This document shows, in pieces, positions 7,601-33,470 of a stretch of DNA of 64,000 bases. The stretch is taken from NCBI GenBank assembly GCA_025558095.1, contig JAIVFI010000013.1, positions 248,001 to 312,000 on the forward strand. Direction: 5' to 3'. Made by a program: the position numbers and the translations under genes. The notes beneath the pieces were generated by a model that saw nothing but the letters and a program-made list of their open reading frames with translations, was not told where the DNA came from and did not search any database. Origin of the DNA: Hyaloraphidium curvatum. Its lineage: Eukaryota; Monoblepharomycota; Hyaloraphidiomycetes; Hyaloraphidiales; Hyaloraphidiaceae. Every line of letters begins with the position of its first letter. Position 1 is the first letter of the stretch.

Positions 7601-8263
7601 CTTTCTTCGATGCCCTGGCAACCGCGCTCTCAAGCGGTGTCGACAACCTGGAGCAGTTCCTCAGCAGGCTACAGGAATCCCTGCCTCGGATCTGGCTGCC
7701 AAGGCTGCATGGCATCCCGGCGGATCTTGTAAGGCCTTCAGTGGAGCTCTCAGTCCCGGGAGGAAACGGGTCAGAGGAAGCGTTAGAGGTGGTTGGTGGA
7801 ATGCCGTCCACCATTGAGCTCGTCGCCCGGACGCATTTCGTCGAGGTAGGATCGCGACCCCGGCATTGACAATGCTCTTGACCGACGCATACGGCAGAAC
7901 GTCGGGGATCTCTTCGTGCAAACTACCCTGCCGACCGGAGAGTTGCAGCTGTTTCACCCGCCGAGCTCCCGCTATTCCCGCTGCGGAAGCGCCGCGACTC
8001 TGCATACCCACATACCCCTGAGGCTAGATCCCTGGACGGGCACGACGCCGATCACTTTTCACATGGTTCAAGAGTTCGAACCGGACCAGGTTTCGCCGGA
8101 TGTGCTCATGTTCCGTCGGGCGACGGGCGATCGCTCGATCGATGCAGCGAGATTCTGTTACCTTGCGCTGGCGGGAGAAGGACGGGAGCAAATGGAAAGG
8201 AGGGAGCTAGCTAGCCCATCGTTAGCAACTGCCCGCCGCTTTGCGCGCGTGCTTTGGGAGTAG
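4686..8263 (+). CDS. INTS4: Integrator complex subunit 4 (HEAT-repeat scaffold)
   Basis: Component of the Integrator cleavage module, the nuclear RNA endonuclease complex with INTS9/INTS11. Thirteen exons: 4686-4790, 4850-5047, 5115-5174, 5231-5473, 5524-5654, 5699-5957, 6012-6153, 6208-6273, 6329-6500, 6552-6691, 6747-6821, 6872-7845, 7898-8263; 976 aa, close to the usual ~960. HEAT-like helices run through the N-terminal two thirds. Diagnostic matches are RLLDDAFSRLCDLVNDG followed by a VRVHVAATLGKF repeat, and the segment SSCGAFIHALEDEFEEVR followed by FLLDMLNDEMDHVRLNAVDTL. The C-terminal domain ends in a beta-rich part (ELQLFHPPSSRY). The first intron has a weak GTCCGC donor. A further 45-bp in-frame intron near 7481-7525 is possible and was left in. 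Confidence 0.9.
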
Positions 8264-16376: not shown

Positions 16377-17908
16377 TCATTTCGTGCCTAGCTTCTGCTC
16401 GACGATCTTCGGACCCTGTTCTTCCCACTCCTGCTTCGAGATCCAGAACGAGTCCTTGTCCTTCATGATATCGGCGAGGACGGCGCCGCCCAGGAACACC
16501 ATGTGCTTTCTCCGGGGCGGATCCTCGACCTTCAGTTGGAATTTCTGTGGCAACATCCAATGAGAGGCCGCGATTGCCCTTACACACCACGCAACCCACC
16601 GAGAGCCGCGAAGTGTCTCCCTTGAGAACGTTCGCAAGGTAGAGTTGCTTGATCTCCTTCTCTAACCGGCTGGGGAGACCCGGGTACATCGTCGAGCCCC
16701 CGGAAAGCACGATGTGCTTGTAGAGCTCCTGCCGGAGGTCGATGTCCGCGGACTGCACCGCGTTGAAGAGTTGCTCTGCGGGCATCGGACGATCAATCCA
16801 CGTGATATCGTCGCGAAGGAGGAAACCTGCCTGCCATCCCGGCGGCCTCGACGTCGACAAGATGCGGCTGGAACAGCGCCTCTGGTGCCTCGAACCGCTC
16901 CGATCCCAGTTTGATGACGCGCCCGTCCGGCAGCTGAGAAGCGGTTAGCGGCGACTTCAGGCGACCGCAAGAGGACCATACGGTATAGCTCTCCATCAGC
17001 ACCGTCGTCTCCTCCGCGAGTTTTCGCTCCAAGTCCAGATCGTACCTGACGCAGCGACGGCATATCAACACAGGGCTGCAGTGGGGGAAAGTGTCCCACC
17101 CACCCGACGTAGCACAGCTTCTCCTTCACCATCCGCACAGTCTCGAAATCTGCCGTCCGGTTGAAGGCGTACCCGCGCAGCAGGAGCAACTTGATGAGGT
17201 AGCGCGTGATGTCGCGCCCTGCCACATCGAGCCGCCTCGTGTTCTGAGGCAACGCGAACCCGTCGTACACCGGCACAATGTGGGTCACGCCGTCTCCAGA
17301 GTCAATCACCACACCGGTCAAGAGGCCTGATTCGGAGGGTCAGACGGCATCCGGCACGGGATCGCGAAATCGGAGGTCCACCTTGCGCGTACAGGGTGAG
17401 GACCGCCTGGATGGCCACGTTCACGCCCTGGAACCCGTACTTCTCGAACATGACCTCGCACATTTTCACCCGGTTCTGTTTCGGGTTCTGCACGGGCTCG
17501 GTCAGGAGCACCTTGCACTCCTTCGGGTCGATCTTGAGCTTCTCGTAGAACGTGTAGTCCCAGAGATACCCCTGGTCCTCCCAGTTGCGGACGATGCCGT
17601 TCTCCATCGGATAGGAGATCTGGAGCAGCGACCTCACGGCGGAGGCCTCGTCTCCGACCATGATGTCCTTGATCTCCACGTCCCCGACCTTCTCCTCCGC
17701 CCGGAGAATGGGCCGCCCGACCATCGAGGGGAAGATGGCCGTCGGGAAGTTGCTCCCCGCAAAGCCGCACTTGACGAACTGCGGAGATGACGCGTCCGCC
17801 GGGACATGAGCGCGTTCGGGCCACGGCAACGGGTCAGCGCAGGACACGCGTTTCGGGGGGTCCGGCACGCACCCCCGTTCCATTGTCGCACACGACGACT
17901 TTCGACAT
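16377..17908 (-). CDS. ARP2: actin-related protein 2 (Arp2/3 complex)
   Basis: ATP-binding subunit of the Arp2/3 actin nucleator. Exons (minus): 17908-17873, 17778-17382, 17326-17104, 17045-16982, 16933-16831, 16775-16600, 16544-16377; 388 aa. The first exon encodes only [12 protein letters not shown], the nucleotide-binding loop. Other matches are [91 protein letters not shown] and [15 protein letters not shown]. Arp2-specific insertions distinguish it from actin. The intron at 16830-16776 has a GC donor; no GT site nearby restores the frame. It is head-to-head with CWC15. Confidence 0.97.
16776..16830 (-). other. GC-AG intron in ARP2
   Basis: 55-bp intron with donor GCAGGT and acceptor CGCAG. 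Splicing here joins GMA to [11 protein letters not shown], as in ARP2 elsewhere, and gives correct phases for the rest of the gene. Confidence 0.8.
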
Positions 17909-18026
17909 CGTGGCGGAGGATAGAGGAGAGCCAGGAACGGGTCGCTCCGAGCGTCTGGACGACTTTCGCCAAGGGATCGACTTTCCAACAGTACTAAATA
18001 ACTGCAGTCGCGACGCTGTCGGCAGG

Positions 18027-18852
18027 ATGACCTCCGCAGCTCGGTGAGCGCCCCGCGGACGGCGAGGCGAGCGCCGCTAATGCTTGCTGCAGACCCACGT
18101 GGAACCCCGCCGTCGGCGGTAACACTCTGCGTGACCGCGGCGGGGTTACGAAGATCGTCTCGTCCAAGGACCTCGCCTCGCAGACCAAGCTCAAGTTCAG
18201 GCAACCGGGTCAGAATGCGCCCGAGGACCTTGCGGGGAAGGACCTGAGGGAGGAGCTGGCGAGGAAGGAGGAGGAGCACGTCAACAAGGGGAAGCGGAAG
18301 ACCGAAACGGACCTCCTCGACGACGACCAGCCGCGGAAGAGGGTACTGCCTCCGGTCAACATCGATGCGGACGACGAGAGCGACGAGGACGATAGCGACG
18401 GGGACGAGGACGGCGCTCCCCGGGCGGCGAAGTCCGCGGACGACTCCTCTTCCGAGTCCGACTCGGACGACGAGGACGACACGGCGGAGCTGATGCGGGA
18501 GCTGGAGAAGATCAAGAGGGAGCGCGCGGAGGAGAAGGAGCGGCAGGAGCGCGAAGCGATGGAGAAGGCGCAGGCCGAGCACGAGGAGGAGGTCCTCCGG
18601 GGGAACCCACTTCTGGACATGGGGAGCAAGGGGGTGGACTTTAGCGTCAAGCGGCGCTGGGACGACGACGTGGTGGGTCTCGGTGGCCCTTGGCGACTCG
18701 ACGCGCAGTGAGTCCCGTTCTGACGCCGTTCTTCTCCTCAGATCTTCAAGAACCAAGCACGAGGCGTGGAAGAAATGCCGAAGAAGCGCTTCATCAATGA
18801 CCTGCTACGGAGCGACTTCCACCGCAAGTTCATGTCCAAATACATCAAATGA
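18027..18852 (+). CDS. CWC15: pre-mRNA splicing factor CWC15
   Basis: Prp19-associated (NTC-related) spliceosome component retained in the activated complex. Exons 18027-18043 (17 nt, MTSAAR), 18093-18672, 18742-18852; 235 aa. After splicing the N-terminus reads [15 protein letters not shown], the family start. It continues with [20 protein letters not shown], an acidic/serine middle, a charged coiled coil [18 protein letters not shown], then [17 protein letters not shown] and the conserved tail [20 protein letters not shown]. The tiny first exon is supported by the PTW junction. Divergent from ARP2 with 118 bp between starts. Confidence 0.95.
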
Positions 18853-21777: not shown

Positions 21778-23345
21778 ATGTCGTCGCGGGACCTCTTGCG
21801 CGATTTGGACAACCTTTCTCTCGTGGAGGATTCGGAGCTTCAGGAGTTTCGACGCCGATGGCGGGAGGAGGTTGAGAGCCGGGCAAGATCGGCCAAGAGC
21901 GGTGCCGATGCAGTGTCGGCATCTTCGACGGATGAAGCGGGCAAGGCCGCTGGCAAGGACGTGGGAAACCGCGTCGGACGGGATCCGAAAGCAATCTCGC
22001 TGGACATCCGAAAGGCCGGCTCCGCTTCTGGGACGGCGCTGGTCTCGGCTCGGCTCGCCGCGGGAACCGCCCAGCCGCAGCGGGAGGCAAGCGATGGGGC
22101 TGCTACGGCGGTGGACGTGTACGACACTGCCGTGCGCTTTGAGCGCGAGGGCAACCTTTCGAAGGCCTTAGAGTTTTATCAGAAGGCGTTTCGGATGGAC
22201 GATCAGTGCGATTCCAAGTGGAGGAAGCTCTGGGCTCGCGGAGAACTGTCGGACGCGGCTCCGTCCACGGACGACGGCGAGAAGGACCGGCCCGATTTCA
22301 CTTACGAATGGTTTGAGCGGGAGAATGGGCCATATGGTTTCGAATCCTCCACGACGGTGGCAACGGAACTGTCAAACATTCCACTGAGGTGGGCTCCTTG
22401 CCGCTCGCGTGATCGACCGCTGATTGGAGCGTTTCCACAGCTTCGTTCCCAAGAAGAAGAACAAGACGGTTCCGCTCGCGAAAGTCCCCGACGAACTCAT
22501 CCTCGTGGTACTGAAGCGCATCGCTTGGATGGACCCTTATGCTTTGGTCAGCATCGGTCTCGTGAACAAGAAGCTCTACATGCTCGCGCGAGAGCAGGTT
22601 GTGTGGCGCGATCTCTGCGAACGGACCTACCGGACCTTTGTGCCCAACGTCTTGGCCCTGGAGGCGGAGCTGCCCACGTACAGCAACGATTGGAAGGTCA
22701 TGTTTTTGAAGCGACCACGTGTGCGCCACGACGGACTCTACATTTCTCGCTGGTTCGTCGTACTGGTGCGTACCCGCGAAACCATGCTGAACCATCGCTC
22801 GGCAGTCACTACTGGAGACCAGGGCAGACAGACTTCGGGCTCACGTCCCCGTACCTTTTGGTGACCTACTTCCGATACCTTAGGGTAAGTCCATCACCGG
22901 GCGCCCTCAACCGTCCTCTGACTCGCCGCGGGCAGTTCTATCGGGACGGCACGGCCATCTCACTGTGCACCACCACGGAGCCAATCGATGCGGTCAAGCT
23001 CTTCCGGAAGCTGCCGAAGAACGTCAAGTCCCTGATGACGGGCCACTGGACCCTGACGGGCAATAGGGTGGAAGTGGTCCTGACCGATCGCGACCGGCCG
23101 AACACCGTTTTCACCATGAGGCTGTGAGGCGGTTGTCAGCGTTCTGGGCTCTTCATTCTGACCTGCGTCCGCTTAGCGCCATCCGCAGCACCGGCCACAG
23201 CTGCATGAATGTCGCAAAATGGGAGCGCTACTCCAGCGTGCAGGGCGATTTTGACGAAGTCGAGTATCCTCTGAAGACCCTGAAGAGTTTCTCGTTCTCT
23301 AGGGTTCGATCGTATGTGTCCTTTCCCTCTCCCCACTGCCCTTAA
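21778..23345 (+). CDS. FBXO9: F-box only protein 9 homologue
   Basis: SCF substrate receptor with a TPR-like N-terminus. Exons 21778-22388, 22441-22752, 22806-22884, 22936-23123, 23177-23345; 452 aa. Visible: ELQEFRRRWREEVESRA, TPR-like VDVYDTAVRFEREGNLSKAL, F-box KVPDELILVVLKRIAWMDPY with VVWRDLCERTYR, then RPRVRHDGLYISR and YFRYLRFYRDGTAISLC. The conserved last strand is FSFSRVRSYV; after it, ten extra codons to the TAA are not family-like. The end of this exon (23304-23319) matches 16 bp found again at 33359-33374, beyond the giant gene. It may have been altered by insertion there. Confidence 0.93.
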
Positions 23346-23442
23346 TGTTTCGGATCCCGGACCTTTGCTGCTTTTGTCAGAGGATGTGTGGTCGGCCCGG
23401 ATGCTCGTCGCGATGCACAGGACGACGCTCCTAGGGAGAACA

Positions 23443-23539
23443 CACAGTCGTTGATGAAGCGGACTAGGACATTGCAGTTTTGTAGTCGAACGCACAGTCG
23501 TTGATGAAGCGGACTAGGACATTGCAGTTTTGTAGTCGA
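23443..23539. repeat. 47-bp tandem duplication, 50-bp period
   Basis: Copies at 23443-23489 and 23493-23539 are identical over 47 bp, separated by 3 bp. Each begins CACAGTCGTTGATG and ends TTTTGTAGTCGA. No function seen. Confidence 0.95.
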
Positions 23540-23624
23540 GATGCAGGCCGGCGATGCAAGGGTGGATGGGTGCGTCCTAATTGGAACCGGCGAACTGGCT
23601 GGATGACGGCGCCGCAATCCAGCC

Positions 23625-23662
23625 AATCAGCAGACGCTGCGATGAGAATCAGCGGACGCTGC
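23625..23662. repeat. two 16-bp near-identical direct repeats
   Basis: AATCAGCAGACGCTGC at 23625-23640 and AATCAGCGGACGCTGC at 23647-23662 differ at one base, period 22 bp. Spacing of about two helical turns would suit a DNA-binding protein, but this is inference. Confidence 0.7.
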
Positions 23663-24218
23663 TATGGAGTCAGGAATGGTTCCACCATCTGTAGACTAGA
23701 TTTGAGACTATCAGCTCATTTTTCTCCAGTCATAGCTGCCGGCGACTTCGGATCAGCCGTCTCGTCTCGCTCGGTAAAGGACTTACTACTCTAGGCCTGA
23801 GGTGCCAAGCGCGGCGGTTCGGACACACGGGAGCTGTCTCTGCGTTATTCAGACGTGCGTATCGACTGCCGGTGTGTTTTCCACGGTTGCGCCGGGGCGT
23901 TGGCTTCGGCGCCGAGCCGGGGTCGCGGGGTTGCCGGGTCCGCTTTCCGGCCCCGTCGACACCCCGGCGGCACACCAACGGCGCCTGGGGAGCTCTCCTC
24001 CGTTGGTGGTCCGCGGTCTTTGTGCTTGGTGGACGCGTGATGGCCGGTAGTTGCGTCCGGCGCGGCGTCGCCGGCGGTGCTCCGGCCCCGGCCCGAGCTC
24101 CGGCGTTTAGATCGGCTTCGAGCGCGCTCACACGCTCCGCCCCCCGCAGGTTCTCTCGCGAGCGGCAGCAGCTTTCTTGTCAAGTACTCGTACCGCCCCC
24201 CTCGAGCTCGCCGGCAAG

Positions 24219-27200
24219 ATGCCGTCGATGCGCCGCGGGGGGCCGGGCCACGGCGCGCGCCGGCAGTACGACCCGGACGGGCGAGGGACGAAGAGCGGCA
24301 AGAGATATCTCGGCGACAAGATCAAAGAGCACTGGCAACATGCCCAACAGGGCCTCTCGATGTTCAACGCCATTCGGACCTTTTCGGAGGGGCGACTATT
24401 GGTGCTCGACTCCGGCGTGCTCATTGTCGACTTTTCGTGGATAGTGCATCGGGTGGCGCCCATGTTCGCTTGGGAGCTGGTTCAATTGGCTTTCGGCGAC
24501 GAGAACCTGGATCCTCTGAGCGCTGCGCAGGCCGAGGAAGTCTTCACCAAGTTGGCCACGGGGCTGATGCGCGAGATCTGGAAGGCCCTGGCGCCCACGA
24601 ACAGGCCGCTGCCGGAGGGCTACCGAGTTGTCATCATCCACGAACTGACGGCGGAATCGGCCGAGGAACTGCTGCGCAAGGAGGGTCCGGGGGTGTCGTT
24701 GCCCGAGACAACGGCCGAGCTGGACGAGTTGCTCCGCCGCCACGGAGACTCGTGCCCGCTCCGTCCTCTTCCCTTGCTGGTTCCTGGCTACCAAGGAGGC
24801 GCGGCGGCTGCGGCGCTTGGTCCCGCCGTGCCGACGAACGGGGATGCTGCACCAGCGGAAGCCGCGAACTTCAACTTTCTGAGGAAGACCGACGTCGAAC
24901 GGGAAAGCCGGACTCGGTCTTCGGCGTCCGCGGCGTCCAAGGGCATCAAGCGCGTGCTGGTGGTTCACGGTGATGGGTTCAAGCGCACCAACAAAGTCGT
25001 CGATCCGCGGAGTACGTGCGTCGACACGCATCCCTACACTGCCGCTGACGGGCATTGCGACAGAGCTTCCCGGTGCGCCGCAGGCCGCGACAAACGTCCT
25101 TCTGTCGGACCCCACGTTCAAACTTTGCCTGTTCAGGGCGACCCAGAAGGTATTGGAGACTCCCGATATGAAGGACAAGCTGCCCGCCGTCGTCTCGCAC
25201 ATTGTCGTGGGCGAGTTCGACCCGGCGGCCTTTGCCTACGGTGGGTTTCACGCCGCGACGTCGCCTGCGGTGGCGCCTTGTTCTGATGACTCCCGAAACA
25301 GCGCGAAATGTCAAGGCGGAACGGGCTCCCAACGCCCGACCAACATTTGTCGGTGTCCTGACCGTCGACACCGACTTCTCCGCTTTCAACGTCGGCAGGT
25401 ACATGGACGCCATGCTCGACGGCATCGGCAAGCAGAAGCGGCTCCTGCCGCTCGACAGGGTCAACCAGCTCTTTGGCGGCGGCTGCTCGCCGCTGGTCAT
25501 CGCGTTCGCGGTGGCCGTCGGCGGCACCGACAACACTCTGCGTTACGGAATGGTGGGTGATGGTTTTGATGGCTTGCCGCCAAGACTGCGCTGACTTGCA
25601 GATCCAGGGTCCGAAGGCCGTGATCGACCTGCTAGACCAGCTCGGCCTTTCCAAGAACTACACGGAACGGGTGCCGGGCCAAGGCCCGCAAGAACTGCTC
25701 GATGCCCTGCTGAACGCGGGCCGCAGGTACCTGAAGAAGCATGTCGTCAAGTTTCTCGAGAAGGATGGGCAGGACATCGTCAAGGCCGTCAACGCGTTCC
25801 GGAACCTGTCAGCAAGGGGCCATTGGCACCTGCCGACGCTCGAGATCGCCGTCGACCAGCTCAAGCAGGATCCCTTTGCGGTCTTTGTCGGCAAAGGAAC
25901 GCTTGTGGAGGCTCATTTGGCAGCGCGGGACGAGAAGCGTGGGAGGCTTCGGAGGCCGAAGCTTCAGCTCCGGTTCAAGGAGGTTGGCATCTTCCCCAGC
26001 CATGATGCGACTTCTCGGCTGATTTCTCTTCTCGCTCGTGCAGATGAAGGACAATCGAGGGAAGTTCCAGCGGGGTGAGCTGCCCCCCAAGGTCGAGCCC
26101 GACCGGGGAAACTACACGGTCCGATGGTTGAGGGAGGTCAAGTTCAAGTTCGAGCGGCGGGAGCGCAGCGAGAAGTCAAAGGTGGCCAAGTACTCGAGGC
26201 TCTTCGGCGAGGACAAGAAGTCCAAGGGCAAGAAGGGCGAGAACGTCGAAGCCGCGAACGTCGGGGCTGAGCTGAGCAACGCCGAAAAGGTCGAGGGCGA
26301 GACCGGCGAGGGCAAGACCGGCGTCGAGAAGGCCGGGAACGGCAAGGAGGGTGGCGGCAGTGCAGGCCGGACGCGGGGCGACGGCGTCGCGCAGAACCCC
26401 GACACCGGACTCTTTGAGCAGCTTTGGTTTGCAGCTTTTGTCGACCCTCATTTGCACCCCGCGCAGCCGGCGGAGAAGCTCGACGGCGACGAGGACGACG
26501 ACCGCTACGGCGACGACGTCAGTGTCACCGAAGGCGGCTCGCCTACTTTGCCTGCAGCACCTCCTCCTCCCGTGCCTGGGCTGGCAGCAGCAGCACCTCC
26601 TTCGGGCTCTTCTCGCCCGGCACCCTCTGCCCTCCTATCCCTCGTGGCACCCTCGCCCGCCGCAGCCGCTCCTTCTCTCTCCTCAGGCGCCGCTCCGGCC
26701 GGCGCGGCACCGGAACCCTCGAACTCCGTTCTGCCGCCATCAACCCCTCCTCCGTGGCCGCCTCCCCCCCCCGCTCCTCGCGGGCCTCCTCGCCGGCTTC
26801 GTCGCAGCCGCCTCGCTCGTCCTCTTTGGCGTCTTCGTCTTCCTCCTCGCATGCCGAGCCCCGGTTCGTGCCGAATCCGGGCGGCGTTGTACCCCGCACC
26901 AGTTTGCCGCTGCCTCAGATCCCGGAGGAGCAGGGCATGGAGCCGCCCCGCGTGCTGACGGCGTCCCCCGAGCCGATGGAGGGCGTCGAAGAGTCCGACC
27001 TCGCGTCGTCGGCGGCGGGTTTTGGTGCCGGGGAGAGCGAGGTGCGCTCGCCCGCTAAGCGCCCCAGCTCTGCCGGTTCTGATCTTGCTGGCGACGAGGG
27101 AGGCGGCGACGAGCACTCCGAGGGACCCGCGCCCAAGATCCGTACTCGAGGCGGCAAAGTTCCTAGCAACGAGCGCTCGGCGTCTGTGGGCTCGGACAGA

Positions 27201-30200
27201 GGTTCCGGGGGGTCGAGATCCGGCAGGGACGGCTCGGACTCCGGCTCGGGTCGGGCGTCGCCGAGTTCGTCGCGGGGCAGGTCACCGGCGCCCTCCCGCA
27301 AGGGTGGTCGTGGTCGCGGTCGCGGTCGCGGTCGGGGTGCAAAGGCAGCGACTGCGGCAGGGGCTGGCTCGTCACCTGCAGCCGGCAAACACAAGGAGCC
27401 TCCTGCCGACCCGGGTGCCGAGCGCGCGCGGGATCTGGGCCTGGATCTGCTGAAGGCCGTCAGTGGGATCAAGGCTCCGTACGTTTGTCGCTGCGCTTGT
27501 GAGCCATCACGGTGCTCACCGACATTGCAATTGCAGAGGCGGACACCGAAACCGCAGCACAGGGCCGCTTCAAGTCCAAGGCTTCGCCACTATCAAGGCT
27601 GAGCTGAAAGAGCTCAAGTACAGCAGCTTCCACAAGGTGGCCGAGGACATGGCCCGGGCGATCAAGGCCGGGCCGCGGGAGCGGGTTTCGCACTTGGATC
27701 AGCTGGTCGCAGCAGGGGAGGGGTCCGAGGCTGATATGAATGCCTGGAAGAACGAGAAGAAGAACATCGAGGCGGAGCAGAAGGCCATGATGGTGAGCCT
27801 GTCGAGGCTCGCGCTTGCGGACAGCACTGACACTTGTTCTCGTAAAGAACACCCTGCACCGATCGTACAACGATCTTGTCGAGCGACGTCGGCAGGCCGA
27901 GATCGAGCGTCAGGCGCCGGGCTCCAGCAGCTCGAGGAAGCCCAAGAAGAAGGGCATGGAGCGCTCTGAGAACACCCTGAACAAGTTCTTCTACTCCGCC
28001 ATGAACGCAACGAAGAGCCACCGCGGCCCGACGCTCGAAAACGCCATGAACCAGTACCGCATGACCTTCAACCGGGCGGCGAATCAAGTACTTGAAGCGC
28101 AAGAAGGTCTCTTTTACCCGGAGCTCCAGGTCGAGGCGATCTTCAACGAGGTCTTTGAGCTCATCGGGGACCAAGTGGTCGGACCAGCCGAGCCCCGCCC
28201 GGCTCGCGACACGCCGGAGTGGAATGGTCGTCTCGAGAAGTTCCGCGCCGCGCTCGATGGAAGCCACACGTTCGCCGTATCAGGTGCTTCGTTCATTGCC
28301 GAAGCGATCAAGACGATCGCTGGGCTGAACATGCTCAGTCGCGCTGCCGGCCACGCGGCATTGCAGGCTGCCGCTGTAGAGGGCTCACCGGCGCTGAACC
28401 AGTTCACGGACTCCCGCTTCGGCGTGCCTGCACCCTCTTCGCGCCCTGTGCGCGCTCGTCCCTCGAGTGGGAGTTCCGCAGACATGCCGGCTGGCGCTGG
28501 CCCGACCAAAGTCTCTGCCGATGAGCTTTTGGCCAAGGATGACGGCGCTTTGGCTCTGTACGCGCAAGCCCGCCAGGCCGTCGTCACCGAGGCACGAGTG
28601 ACGGTCGAGCCGGATGATCGGAAAGCCGTACAGTACAAGGCCGTGCTTGACCTGTTGAGGAATGGACAACTTGCGGAGCAAACCAGCTTCCGCCCCCGTA
28701 CCACAGAAGCCTTGAAGTTTTTGACGGTCTGCAGGTTCTCCCCTTTGGATCCCCCGTTCAAGCGGGAGGCCTTCCTGGCCTTGGAGCCTCCGATCGAGGC
28801 GGCCGCGGCTGGACAAGAAGCGAACGCCGAGACGGTGGCTGAACAGCCGGATGAGGCGGTTCAGGCAGCCGAGCCTGCGGACGTGCCAATGGAGCCGGCG
28901 GACCCGGCCGCTCCGTTGCCCGCGGGGCAGCCGTTCCACGCCATCACGGCGGCGCAGTTCGAGGAGCAGACCGTGGTGGTTCAGCCGGGCTGGAGGAACG
29001 CGCTGGTAACGGCGCTAGAGGCCACGCTCGCAGCGGTTGTGCAGGACAAGGAAGGCGGGCCCGCGGCCTACGCTCGAGGCGTGGAGTCTCGTGCAGAGGC
29101 GATTCGGACGCAGACGGCATCGGGCTTTGGGAGCCCATTCGGCCGCCCTGGCGAACGTGGGATTTCAATGGGCACGGACTACATGATCCCGCGCGCGGAC
29201 CACGAGGTGCTGCAGGAGCCGGGACTGGCCGCGCAACCGCCTGCCGACGAGGACGGCGTCCTTCTCCTCATGCTGAATTGCCCGAAACTCGCAGCCCTGA
29301 TCGGGGACGCCGCGTCGATTTTGGAGAACAAGACGGCACAATACGTTCATGTGGTGATTTGCATCGTGGTGTCGCTCCTCACCGAGGAGACCTTGGGACG
29401 AGCGGTGAGCTGGATCATCCCACCTTGGTCCGCACGTTGACCCGATGCTGACCGTGTGGCTCCTCAGGGACCAGTCGACGCGGAACGCGAGACATTGCGC
29501 CGGCCCATCATGGAGGGCGGCGTCGCCAACGACGGGCTTCTGAAGGAGCAGATGTCGATCATCCGCCGTTACCTCAAAATCGCCTGCATCGACGCCAACC
29601 CCATCTGCTTGGGCGTGTTTCTCCCGGCCAAGGACGAGGAGCAGTTCCGGAAGCGCGTCGAGACGGACGGCATCGCGCGCGCGGTGCAGGGTTTGCAGCG
29701 GTACATCCCCATCTGCGTCCTGTGTCCGCTACTCGTGGACCCCTGCTGCTTCGACTCAGGGGTCAGGGACACCGCGACCGAGGAGCAGAAGGAAGCCGCA
29801 CGGAATGCCCATCGCTCGCTTATGGAGACGGTGTTCTACCACCACCTGGTCGGCCTCGGCTCCTTTGCCTTCCTGGGCGCCGGCCGCTTCGCTGCCCGGA
29901 CGGCCCAGTCTGTGGCTCCAATGCCTGCAGCGACTTTGCCCTCGACCTCTGCGACCGCCGACGACCTCGACGGACCTCACCTCCACGGGAACGCGGCCAT
30001 CGAGCTCACGCAGTGGTCGTCCGTGGCTCTGGTTCCTCACCCTGACGGTAGCGGCCGCCACCTCCTGGCCATGAAGTCGCCGCACCCCATCTTCGCCGTC
30101 TCGTCGACCGGCGTCGCCGTGGACAGCCCACTCGTCTTTGCCGCGCAGCTCCTTTTGCCCCTGCTACTGCGCCGCATGACCAAGCTGCGCGCTGGCGACG

Positions 30201-33200
30201 AGCTCTTCGACCAGCACTCGGACTGGACCGGGGGAGTCCCGCCACTGCTCGCTGGCTACGCCCGCGCGGCCCTCCAGCCCGCGATCAGGCGGGCGATGGA
30301 GCTCCTCGCCGAAGGCGGCTTCGACGTCATGCTCCGCGGACGGCCTCAAGGCGATGGCCTCAACAGCGCGGCTGCGTTCGAGAAGGAGGAGGACGAGCTG
30401 TCGGCCCCACGGGTGCGCAGCTCCGTGCCGTCGTCCATGATCGCGCCCGAAGCCAGCGTCAAGGCCATCGCGCCGGTGCTGGGGACGGCAACGCTCGCCA
30501 CCTTCCTGGACCGCGAAATGCTGCCGGTTGCCCGCTTGCTCCCGGAACGCGTGAAGGAGGCCCTGGACATCAAGGCCGACGCCGCTTTGCAAGGCCAGCT
30601 CGTTCGGATCGCGACGGAAGGCAACGACGCCAACGCCATTCCCGACAAGCTGCGCAAGAGCGCGCGTGGCTTGTTGGCGCGGACGGCGCGTGGCAAGTCG
30701 GGCAAGGCACAGGTGCTGAAGGCCGCGCGCGGGGACGGTGAAGAGGACGAGGACGGTGACCTGGACGATTCAGGGGACGAAGAAGACGACGGCGAGGAAC
30801 CTGGCGAGGAGCCGGCTGCAGGAAGCGCGCTGGAGAGAGTTCGCACGTGGTCTACACGGTGGCGAGATACCATCGCCAAGCGGCAGTGGTCGGCAGCTCG
30901 CAAGGCCGCCTCGGAAGCTCTCCTCTCGGCCATGGACACCTTGTTTGCCAACTGCACCGAGGAGGCTGATGTTCAGCTCGCTGTTTTGGACCTCTTGAAC
31001 CTGGGCGACGACGTGCGAAGGCTCTTTCTATCGGGCAACTGGACGCAGGCCGCTCTCAACTCGGCCGCAATCGCAGCACGATTCGCCATGGAAACTCTAC
31101 CCGAGTTTCGTGCTCTCGTTCCTGTTCCCTTGGCACGGGCAATCTCAATCCCCGTCGACGGGACCCTTGCGGCGCGCCTCTTGCTGTCCTGGATCAGGGC
31201 CTGCACCTCGGAGATCAGGATGACGGTGGCAAACAGCCTATCCGCAACCCTGTCCGGGATGGAGCAGCGGGGCACAGTTGGGCCGCAGGACGCGGCCGAC
31301 ATCAGCGCGATCATCGAGAAGATAAAGCTCGGGTCGGACATCGCCGCCACATCCTTTTTCCCTCACCTCCTGTTTGCATTCGAGGCTCTCTTTGTCGGAC
31401 TTCCTCCTCTCGATCCGCGACCACGCGTTGTTCAATACGGCAATCGAACGCTCCAGCTCCCTCCACAATGGATCCCCAGGCCGTTCCTCCAGACCAACGG
31501 CTACTCAACCGTTCCTCTCGGAACCGTTCCGGCTCACCACACCGCGCGCAAGACTGGCAGCGCCGCCGTCACCAAGTATGGAGCCGAGGTCCTCGGCGTC
31601 AACTCGTCCCGCGGCGAGAACATCATCATGGTGAGCCAATTGCCTGGGCCACCTGACAGCGAGCCATCTTCTGACTTGCTGGCACCTGCAGCGCTCCCGT
31701 ACGCGCCGCGATTACACTCTGCCGGAGCAACCCGCCGCCGCCGTCGACGTCGCCCCTCTCCCCGCTCAACGGGCCGGAACGGCTCAGCTGATGGACACGG
31801 AGACTACCGACGACGCCATGAACACGGACGTGGATTTGCTCGAGGCGCCGCACCAGGAATTCGGGGCCCAGTTGCGGCCCGACGTGGAGGACCTGGAAAT
31901 GTCAGAGGCACAACGGGAGGGCTCTACCTCCGAGGAACGCCCAGCCGTGGAGCCTGCCGCCGCCGTGGAGCCTGCCGCCGCCGTGGAGCCTGCCGCCGCC
32001 GCGGACCGAAGTCAGCTGCGCCCTACCTCCTCGCTGCCCTACCTGCATGCTCTGCAGCTGCACATTGGAGGGCGTCCGGATCCTCTTCATGCCGAGGGCA
32101 TCGAGCCGCTACTGCCTCGGGATGCTCCCGCTGCGGCCGCTGCTCCGCCACCGGGATCGTCGTCGGACTCTTCCCCCACGGCTCCGCCGGCCCCGATCGA
32201 CGAGGACCTGATCTTCGGCCCGGACATGTGCGACACCAGCATCGACATGCTGAAGCATCTGCTTGGCAAGTGCTCGTTCGGAGCCGGTGCCTCCCGCACC
32301 GACGGCGCCTTCCGCGGCTGCATCCCGGAGGCCGCCTTCACCGTCCACCCTGCCAACCCGGCCTTCTCGACGCAATCGTTTGTGATGAAGCAGGGCGGAC
32401 CCCGCTGCTTCGTCCCGCTCATGTTCCGGACCTGGAGCAAGTTCGAGTTCGACGCGTACACCCAGAACCTCCTCGACACAGCCGGCCCGATCTTCGACCA
32501 GTCGTACAGCAGAGGAGCCACGGCAAGACGGGGAGCCGCAGCACTCGCCTGCCGAGGCCGAACACGCGCAGGCGGCTACGATCGCGGAGGAGCTGATGGA
32601 GGCGATGGCGCCGGAGATGGAGCGGGTGCTCGACGAGGCTGATCGCGCAGCAGGGGCAGAACAGGCGGCCGCAGAGGAGCAGGCACAGCAAGGCGGACCA
32701 GCAGCTGACGGGCAGCACGAGGAGGACAAGGAGCGCGCGCGGCGCGAGCAGCGCAACGCCTTCATCGCCGGCAAGGTCAAGGAGGCGGTCGAGAGCCTCA
32801 GGGCTGAGCTTGCCGACGGCCGCAAGGAGCACTACAACCCGATCGTGATCATCGGCGACGGCGGCCATGGCGGGCGAACCCCGGATCCTGACTCCCTCGC
32901 CGGGTTCCTGATACGGCTGTTCCTCGTGATCTTGCTCATTGAGTGGGGCACTTCTCAGGTAGGCTGGACCGTTCTGCACCTGCGTGACTTTGGCTGACGC
33001 ATCTCCCAGCGCTGCCCTTCGTGCTATTCGAAGCTGCTCCCTACGAAGGACCTCCACATCAAGGACTGTCCCTCGTGCCCCGGACACGACGGCACCGGCA
33101 TGCTTCGGGTGGAGAAGAACGTTTCCGCGACTCTCTGCTTTTATCGAATCTTTCTACACATCCTGGCAACGGGCACGCGGCCTCCGGCCTTCCGTGACCC

Positions 33201-33222
33201 GACTGCCAAACTCATTACCTGA
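24219..33222 (+). CDS. giant FEN/XPG-like protein with TnpB/Fanzor-like C-terminus
   Basis: Twelve exons: 24219-25011, 25064-25240, 25302-25552, 25602-25982, 26044-26727, 26808-27478, 27537-27792, 27848-29404, 29468-31630, 31692-32455, 32502-32958, 33010-33222. They sum to 2789 codons. Residues ~30-530 resemble a divergent flap endonuclease: RLLVLDSGVLIVDFSWIVHR, LVVHGDGFKRTNK, VGVLTVDTDFSAF, GGTDNT (where FEN has GSDY), then a helix-hairpin-like IQGPKAVIDLLDQLG. Next come K/E-rich, P/A/S-rich and RGRGRG disordered parts (to ~990), then long helical regions without known family. The C-terminal ~110 residues show IIGDGGHGG, EWGTSQRCPSC, KDCPSC and RIFLHILATGTRPPAF, the order seen at TnpB/Fanzor C-termini. 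The 26728-26807 and 32456-32501 introns are the least certain. It could be two or more genes, but every junction keeps frame. Confidence 0.6.
31944..31997 (+). repeat. three exact 18-bp repeats inside the giant gene
   Basis: Three tandem copies of an 18-bp unit encode (A)VEPAA repeats. In-frame coding minisatellite in a disordered region. Confidence 0.9.
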
Positions 33223-33470
33223 CAAACGAACCAGGTACTTTAGCTGAATGCGTGAGTGCACTGTGGTCGTGCATCGTGGATAGTTTACTCATGCGATAAG
33301 CTGTTTCGTGGAATTGGTATCCTCCTTTGCGTTTTGGTGGCGGTTCCCGGATTCCGTAGTTCGATCGTATGTGTGAAAAGGGAGATCGTCCTAGAAGAGA
33401 GACGGGGAGCCAGCCTTCTGCTGACCCCAGAGCTAACCGGGACGCGTAGCTCCGTGCGTCGCGTTCAGCG

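Follow-up and report, generated by a model that had tools for sequence, protein, structure and literature searches.

The window analyzed here is a 64,000-nucleotide stretch of the high-GC, 31.9-Mb genome of Hyaloraphidium curvatum (C13:248001-312000). It holds a mobile element of 10,039 bp on the forward strand (23320 to 33358), bounded by a target-site duplication and ending in a constant right end, GGATTCCGTA, that is common to its copies. The genome contains at least 12 copies in four subfamilies, A to D, and the window copy belongs to subfamily A. We think that it is probably a decayed copy of a family that encodes a giant protein with a 5′-nuclease-like N-terminus, a long uncharacterized middle, and a C-terminal RuvC domain and zinc ribbon of the Fanzor1 type. 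Fanzor nucleases are relatives of CRISPR enzymes in eukaryotes.

A perfect 16-bp repeat, GTTCGATCGTATGTGT, lies on both sides of the element. The left repeat (23304 to 23319) encodes VRSYV, the last codons of an F-box-like gene; the coding frame that it closes, ..KSFSFSRVRSYV, runs eight codons on into the element. The right repeat (33359 to 33374) also reads VRSYV and directly adjoins TGA, the displaced original stop codon of the target gene. The interrupted target protein would gain eight residues (SFPSPHCP), followed by a stop supplied by the element. An FBO_C profile matched upstream of the element at an E value of 0.006, below the cut-off, and this match, in light of the usual character of such proteins, suggests that the insertion target was an F-box-only-type gene. 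The element itself opens with a pyrimidine-rich 5′ junction tract (23320 to 23347) that differs between copies, and the 5′ part of the window copy has a 50-bp unit in tandem twice (23438-23537) that is single in the copy on contig C2.

The gene reads on the forward strand. Exon 1 (24219 to 25011) carries the LLVLDSGVLIVDF motif, which holds the first acidic residue of the 5′-nuclease-like domain; exon 2 (25064 to 25240) carries VVGEFDPAAFAY and an E-x-D pair; exon 3 (25302 to 25552) carries the D-x-D pair of VDTDFSAF followed by GGTDNT; and exon 4 (25602 to 25982) carries IQGPKAVIDLL, which is like the FEN hairpin. The intron before exon 4, just past GTDNT/GSHNT, occupies the same position in subfamilies B to D. 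Exon 5 (26044 to 27478) encodes a low-complexity linker, with a change of frame within 26545-26808, where the C2 copy lacks 269 bp. Exon 6 (27537 to 27792) is followed by exons 7 (27848 to 29404) and 8 (29468 to 31630), which encode a middle region collinear with that of subfamily B. Exon 9 extends from 31692 as far as a frame break at 32510 and has lost its RuvC-I segment; the remainder (32511 to 32958), in another frame, encodes IIGDGGHGG at the RuvC-II position and EWGTSQ with an alternative catalytic Glu. The last exon (33010 to 33222) supplies the CPSC..CPSC zinc ribbon, VEKNVSAT (the third RuvC motif, with Asn for Asp), and the stop codon. A 3′ untranslated region (33223 to 33358) that holds a second long stem-loop then runs up to the constant right end.

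An earlier note, made from the letters alone, had named these FEN-like and Fanzor-like motifs, and they are indeed present in the window. It had also described twelve exons giving a single open frame of 2789 codons, and here the window copy departs from it. Nine of the eleven introns are convincing, being 49 to 63 bp long with GT..AG borders and consistent phases. At 32510 (junction 32509 to 32510), the window copy lacks 170 bp of the C2 and C30 copies, and this deletion shifts the frame. The intron drawn over 32.5 kb is spurious and bridges a real frameshift: the GT..AG pairs able to span the break are just 32447-32501 and 32456-32501, with poor splice sites and no branch point. The extra intron over 26.5-26.8 kb is weak; the frame also shifts in the Pro-rich stretch 26545-26808, where the cause may be an indel in poly-C or a weak intron at 26728-26807. 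A second deletion, of 267 bp, lies between CCGGACC repeats (junction 32426 to 32432) and is in frame; it removed the RuvC-I strand, which reads PFVCLDVGDK in C2 and C30. Both missing segments align with subfamilies B to D, so they were lost from the window copy.

Because RuvC-I is deleted and the frame is shifted, the window copy is dead, a pseudogene. The earlier suggestion of a degraded mobile-element protein therefore fits this copy, with its duplications, its relatives elsewhere, its missing RuvC-I, and its frameshift. Among the identified subfamily-A copies none is intact: C2 has lost 949 bp, with a shift of frame, and large internal segments are deleted from C30 and C11. That the window gene is instead intact and domesticated by the host is scarcely credible. 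Its N-terminal exons are open, but the RuvC-I deletion, the frameshift, the recent 16-bp duplication, and a 98-99% identical copy elsewhere all speak against domestication, which is also contradicted by several decayed sister copies with target-site duplications.

The features of the window are not chance, because the element was found at other loci at 91-99% identity. DNA searches placed subfamily A on C13 (the window), C2, C11, C30, and C6. A protein search added further members at about 50% identity: subfamily B at C8:332 kb, C31, C17, and C15; subfamily C on C14 and C5; and subfamily D at C8:90 kb. An additional fragment without the 3′ end lies at C2:508 kb.

The best-preserved sister is the subfamily-B copy on C8 (L054), whose spliced exons form a single frame running for 2,948 codons without a stop, counted between the ends examined; the predicted protein has about 2,900 residues. 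C8 and C31 are 95.3% identical over 10.95 kb. Over 7.8 kb of coding sites they differ at a proportion of 0.106 of synonymous sites (pS) and 0.030 of nonsynonymous sites (pN), with a nonsynonymous-to-synonymous ratio (dN/dS) of about 0.29 and 0 stops. In this comparison dN/dS falls lowest in the second 5′-nuclease exon, at 0.13, and in the two RuvC exons, at 0.13 in one and 0.19 in the other; nonsynonymous change is lower in the RuvC exons than elsewhere (p 2e-5). On these figures, the C8 and C31 copies appear to be intact and subject to selection. Synonymous divergence is low in the last exon (p 0.0025); this was considered as a sign of RNA constraint and not accepted, given the gene conversion-like variation along the copies. 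Between the window copy and C2, synonymous divergence is as low as 0.016 in exon 9 and as high as 0.46 in exon 6, a spread suggestive of mosaic copies or gene conversion.

Subfamily A matches the other subfamilies along its length. At the N-terminus, 336 columns align by profile with a score of 43.4 (P 6e-5), against at most 26.1 for shuffles, the middle regions of A and B are collinear by BLAST (E 9e-8), and the C-termini match at an E value of about 1e-22. With the frame intact, selection purifying, and the parts collinear, the two ends belong to one protein that is selected as a whole. The earlier placement of both in one gene is thus borne out, by the same parts in the same order in the sister subfamilies and by the C8 frame, and the proposed new fused nuclease stands at the level of the family, through the sister copies. 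The long low-complexity linkers would also suit a nuclease gene and a Fanzor gene that are adjacent and joined merely by gene modeling. We consider that very improbable, in view of the phase-consistent introns, the stop-free C8 frame, purifying selection across all exons, and collinearity in four subfamilies.

Turning to the N-terminal domain, we found that D53, E141, E284/D286, and D314/D316 are invariant in alignment A1. The spacing of the E-x-D and D-x-D pairs matches that of E158/E160 and D179/D181 in FEN1. After D-x-D comes G(S/T)(H/D)NT and then a G(A/P)xKxVxxLL-like motif resembling the FEN GxDY..GIGPKxA. Six of the seven ordered catalytic acidic residues are therefore invariant Asp or Glu, and the seventh is Asp in subfamily A only. 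Compared with 46 archaeal FENs, the family profile scored 30.4 (P 0.0045), against 13.4 for reversed FEN and at most 26.0 for shuffles (100 of 100 beaten), and the alignment keeps its register from D-x-D past GS(D/H)N to the hairpin motif. The FEN template was verified: its query finds archaeal genes at 80-89% identity. An AlphaFold2 (AF2) model built for 407 residues of the C8:90-kb copy, 22 of them intron-coded, displays the expected beta-alpha order. When VIA-align was run on 999 Foldseek candidates, ranks 1 to 15 all went to Rat1, plastid exonuclease, EXO1, XRN2, or FEN1 (Z 5.4-6.7). The motifs, the profile, and the structural ranking together make it likely that the N-terminus has a 5′-nuclease fold.

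Several results pull the other way. In subfamilies B to D, His takes the place of the last FEN Asp. Neither XPG_N nor XPG_I of Pfam matched at E values up to 5, so the domain is not counted in these families as defined. The AF2 model is weak, with a predicted local distance difference test score (pLDDT) of 52 and a predicted template modeling score (pTM) of 0.58, the 22 intron-coded residues included, and Foldseek returned nothing significant with it; VIA-align Z scores below 8 may reflect a common arrangement and are not proof alone. The missing family library match, the low model confidence, the empty Foldseek search, and the His in three subfamilies would suit some other alpha/beta domain with acidic motifs that imitate FEN. 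We regard such a domain as rather unlikely, since it would have to account for six acidic positions in FEN order and spacing, an in-register profile alignment, and a single superfamily in each of the first fifteen places of the structural ranking.

Fanzor and TnpB proteins share the motif D-X(125-275)-[TS][TS]-XX-C4-X(5-50)-RD (Bao and Jurka, PMC3627910), and the C-terminus of the family fits it except that RD is replaced by KN. The subfamilies show, in this order, (V/L/M)D(P/V)G..., NPIVxxGxG, E(Y/H/W)xTSQxCPxC, CxxC, and (N/E)KN(R/V)SATLC. The RuvC-I Asp precedes the TS-C4 ribbon by 216 residues in subfamily B, within the range of the motif, and by about 300 in A, which has an insertion; TSQ-CPxC-...-CxxC occurs in all subfamilies. 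The RuvC-II position (IGDGG/CGAGQG) has no Glu, and the alternative catalytic Glu, in GE(Y/H)/IEW ahead of TSQ, is invariant. Also invariant across subfamilies, besides this Glu of GExxTSQ, are the Asp of VDPG, the C4 ribbon, and KN. The last motif takes the form NKNRSAT, or VEKNVSAT in the window copy. A TnpB profile comparison scored 40.7 (P 2e-5; maximum of 100 shuffles, 24.4) with a template verified by its match to 8bf8 at 9e-279, and PF07282 matches, although weak (E 0.008-0.06), recur in all four subfamilies. Judged by its motifs, the C-terminus is a Fanzor1-like RuvC domain and zinc ribbon, as the earlier note had proposed from a Fanzor/TnpB-like ending.

Against this assignment stand the KN found in every copy in place of the literal RD, which holds the third catalytic Asp; the extent of the TnpB profile match, just 44 columns at the TS/zinc ribbon; and an AF2 model of the C-terminus, where Fanzor1 would have WED and REC domains ahead of a RuvC fold, that was unusable (pLDDT 36). 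With NKN or EKN in all four subfamilies where Fanzor has RD, the RuvC domain might no longer be a nuclease. It could be a guided DNA-binding or regulatory domain like the nuclease-dead bacterial TnpB repressors, and only the N-terminal domain would cut. This strikes us as improbable. The VDPG Asp and GEY Glu are invariant, and the RuvC region is the most constrained (dN/dS 0.13-0.19). Furthermore, Asn is the natural third residue of GtFz1, which cuts DNA, and the corresponding D606N change makes SpuFz1 more active (PMC11423790). The literal RD motif fails, yet by analogy with the Asn of GtFz1, RuvC chemistry may survive.

The profile searches and structure predictions that the earlier note had proposed as checks came out divided, with PF07282 matching weakly and the XPG models not matching, and with 5′ nucleases heading the VIA-align ranking while Foldseek was empty and model confidence low. 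Its FEN-like N-terminus stands on motif order and spacing, the FEN profile, and the structural ranking, whereas the Pfam XPG models did not match and the fold model is weak. More broadly, Pfam scans of all parts gave no significant named domain at either end, with scattered zinc-ribbon matches; PDB sequence searches with single sequences and profiles A1 and A3 gave no credible relative; and scans of viral contigs with the N- and C-terminal profiles gave none.

The copies share a distinctive pattern of insertion. In subfamily A the right end is constant (..GGTTCCCGGATTCCGTA), the left ends vary, and the last 136 bp used as a query matched only the family itself. Target-site duplications measure 16 bp in the window, 14 bp in C30, 14 bp in C5, 17 bp in C6, about 10 bp in C2, and possibly 8 bp in C11. 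Copies are often 5′-truncated, down to 146 bp. In C6 (L061, reverse strand, 7710-7904), a 164-bp insertion consists of an 18-nucleotide pyrimidine tract followed by the final 146 bp of the element, which begin exactly at a hairpin described below, and has a perfect 17-bp duplication on both sides; here the hairpin and 3′ region alone moved. Copy-specific extra sequence lies between the duplication and the element body. It is 82% pyrimidine in the window (28 nucleotides), 90% in C30 (60 nucleotides), and 94% in C6 (18 nucleotides), and in C5 (L057, 3946-4336), it is about 390 bp of unmatched sequence before a 5′-truncated body, possibly a template switch or a carried-along 5′ flank.

No terminal inverted repeats were found between the 200-bp ends, as a DNA transposon of that type would have, and Pfam scans of all parts of the protein recognized no transposase. 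The scanned N-terminal, middle, and C-terminal pieces had no match to a reverse transcriptase (RVT), which a long interspersed nuclear element (LINE) would encode. Introns are kept in copies with internal deletions or 5′ truncation, so the copies are not derived from spliced mRNA. Precise intron loss, as in a spliced retrocopy, was rejected as the source of the differences between copies, since the gaps are not GT..AG and the introns are kept.

The insertion signature has the look of target-primed copying that starts at the 3′ end. It resembles that of LINEs in its 3′-anchored, 5′-truncated copies, variable target-site duplications, and 3′ hairpin; it differs in that the family has no recognized reverse transcriptase, keeps its introns, and lacks a poly(A) tail. 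LINE-type target-primed reverse transcription could still account for it if the enzyme came in trans from one of the many reverse transcriptases in the genome and the nuclease domains were accessory. This would fit the constant 3′ end with its hairpin, truncations to 146 bp, 8-17-bp duplications, and 5′ junctions that are pyrimidine-rich or foreign; reverse-transcriptase matches number at least 152 in the genome, and no such domain was recognized in the element protein. However, introns persist in truncated or internally deleted copies (C30), so that the intermediate was not a spliced mRNA, and the matches to the last 136 bp, all within the family, include no partner LINE sharing that 3′ end. 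We therefore rate copying in trans as a serious but doubtful contender.

At the level of whole elements, the closest precedent is MCi-2 of Mucor circinelloides, which has 11-12 bp duplications following ATAATTNNNN and in some copies a partial Crypton gene (Bao and Jurka, 2013, PMC3627910). Like the present family (duplications of 8-17 bp), MCi-2 has a constant 3′ part, variable 5′ parts, target-site duplications, and no terminal inverted repeats. Unlike it, MCi-2 has a shared 3′ part of 6 kb without a described 5′-nuclease domain, and no shared target motif was seen at the insertion sites of our family.

A hairpin spans the stop codon (TACCTG-ACAAACGAAC-CAGGTA; 33216 to 33237, forward strand) in all 12 copies that have the 3′ end. 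Its stem is of 5-6 bp and its loop, A(U/C)AAANNNAC, of 10 nucleotides. Stem pairs covary between A and B to D, two being changed on both sides with 100% pairing retained; no shuffle equaled this pairing, and sliding the strands destroyed it. The covariation evidence is modest because it reflects one event between two groups. Coding does not explain the hairpin, because the stop codon (UGA in A, UAA in B to D) sits at different places within the motif. Genome-wide, a 20-base pattern of the hairpin occurs at exactly 12 sites, all of them 3′ ends of the family (7 + 5), and reversed control patterns occur nowhere. We regard the hairpin as a candidate omega-RNA or 3′-recognition structure. The whole 136-nucleotide 3′ region shows no unusual stability (z -0.96), which tells against such a role, and an Rfam search over the 3′ end matched no family.

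Among features lying outside these domains, an N-terminal exon of subfamilies B, C, and D (L054, L058, and L056) encodes a stretch ending in GG like the second half of ubiquitin; the ubiquitin comparison for B plus C gave P 0.0014, which is a lead only, and the stretch was not seen in subfamily A. Subfamily B (L054, 7609-7830) has a weak Cys-rich, Zn2Cys6-like cluster between the middle and RuvC parts (E 0.006, below the cut-off). In the window, the neighboring gene on the reverse strand (17302-18804) belongs to the actin family and is ARP2-like (Pfam Actin, E 5e-36).

In an intact member of the family, the hairpin and 3′ untranslated region might serve as an omega-RNA that would direct the RuvC domain to DNA with the same sequence as that next to the right end. 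Cutting there by the RuvC domain would rely on a D-E-N triad, like that of GtFz1, and the 5′-nuclease domain could trim or resect 5′ ends, flaps, or the 5′ end of the guide RNA at the cut. Such 5′-end processing may help the element to copy itself from its 3′ end. The window copy has lost the capacity for this. A bolder version holds that guided cutting and 5′-end processing themselves drive the 3′-anchored copying of a transposon without recognizable transposase or reverse transcriptase, that is, eukaryotic self-guided insertion by one polyprotein; we count this as unlikely.

How the protein relates to known nucleases can be seen from its two ends. With Fanzor1 (SpuFz1, GtFz1, and PpFz1) it shares the RuvC-I Asp, a Gly in the RuvC-II position, a Glu ahead of TS, the C4 ribbon, a third motif on a helix with the GtFz1-type Asn, and residence in a mobile element whose right end is conserved. 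Fanzor proteins are quoted as 400-700 residues long (PMC10432273), whereas this one has about 2,900, with an extra 5′-nuclease-like N-terminus, a long middle, and KN for RD, and its similarity to TnpB is detectable just around the zinc ribbon, by profile. With FEN1, EXO1, and XRN2/Rat1, which are its top structural matches, it shares counterparts of FEN1 D34, E158/E160, and D179/D181 at the same spacing and a hairpin motif after the last strand. It differs from FEN1 in having Glu for D86, His for D233 in three of four subfamilies, and no Pfam-level match, and from the whole FEN/EXO1/XRN group in lying in a mobile element, fused to a Fanzor-like domain. In the openly accessible literature on Fanzor with domain fusions, exonucleases, and fungi, including Basidiomycota, we found no published Fanzor/5′-nuclease fusion.

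The family has a distinct signature, combining a constant 3′ end, 5′ truncation, 8-17-bp duplications, and retained introns. It offers a natural system for asking whether RNA-guided cutting joins in copying and how the cut ends are processed, and since the C8 and C31 copies look intact, these questions are directly testable.

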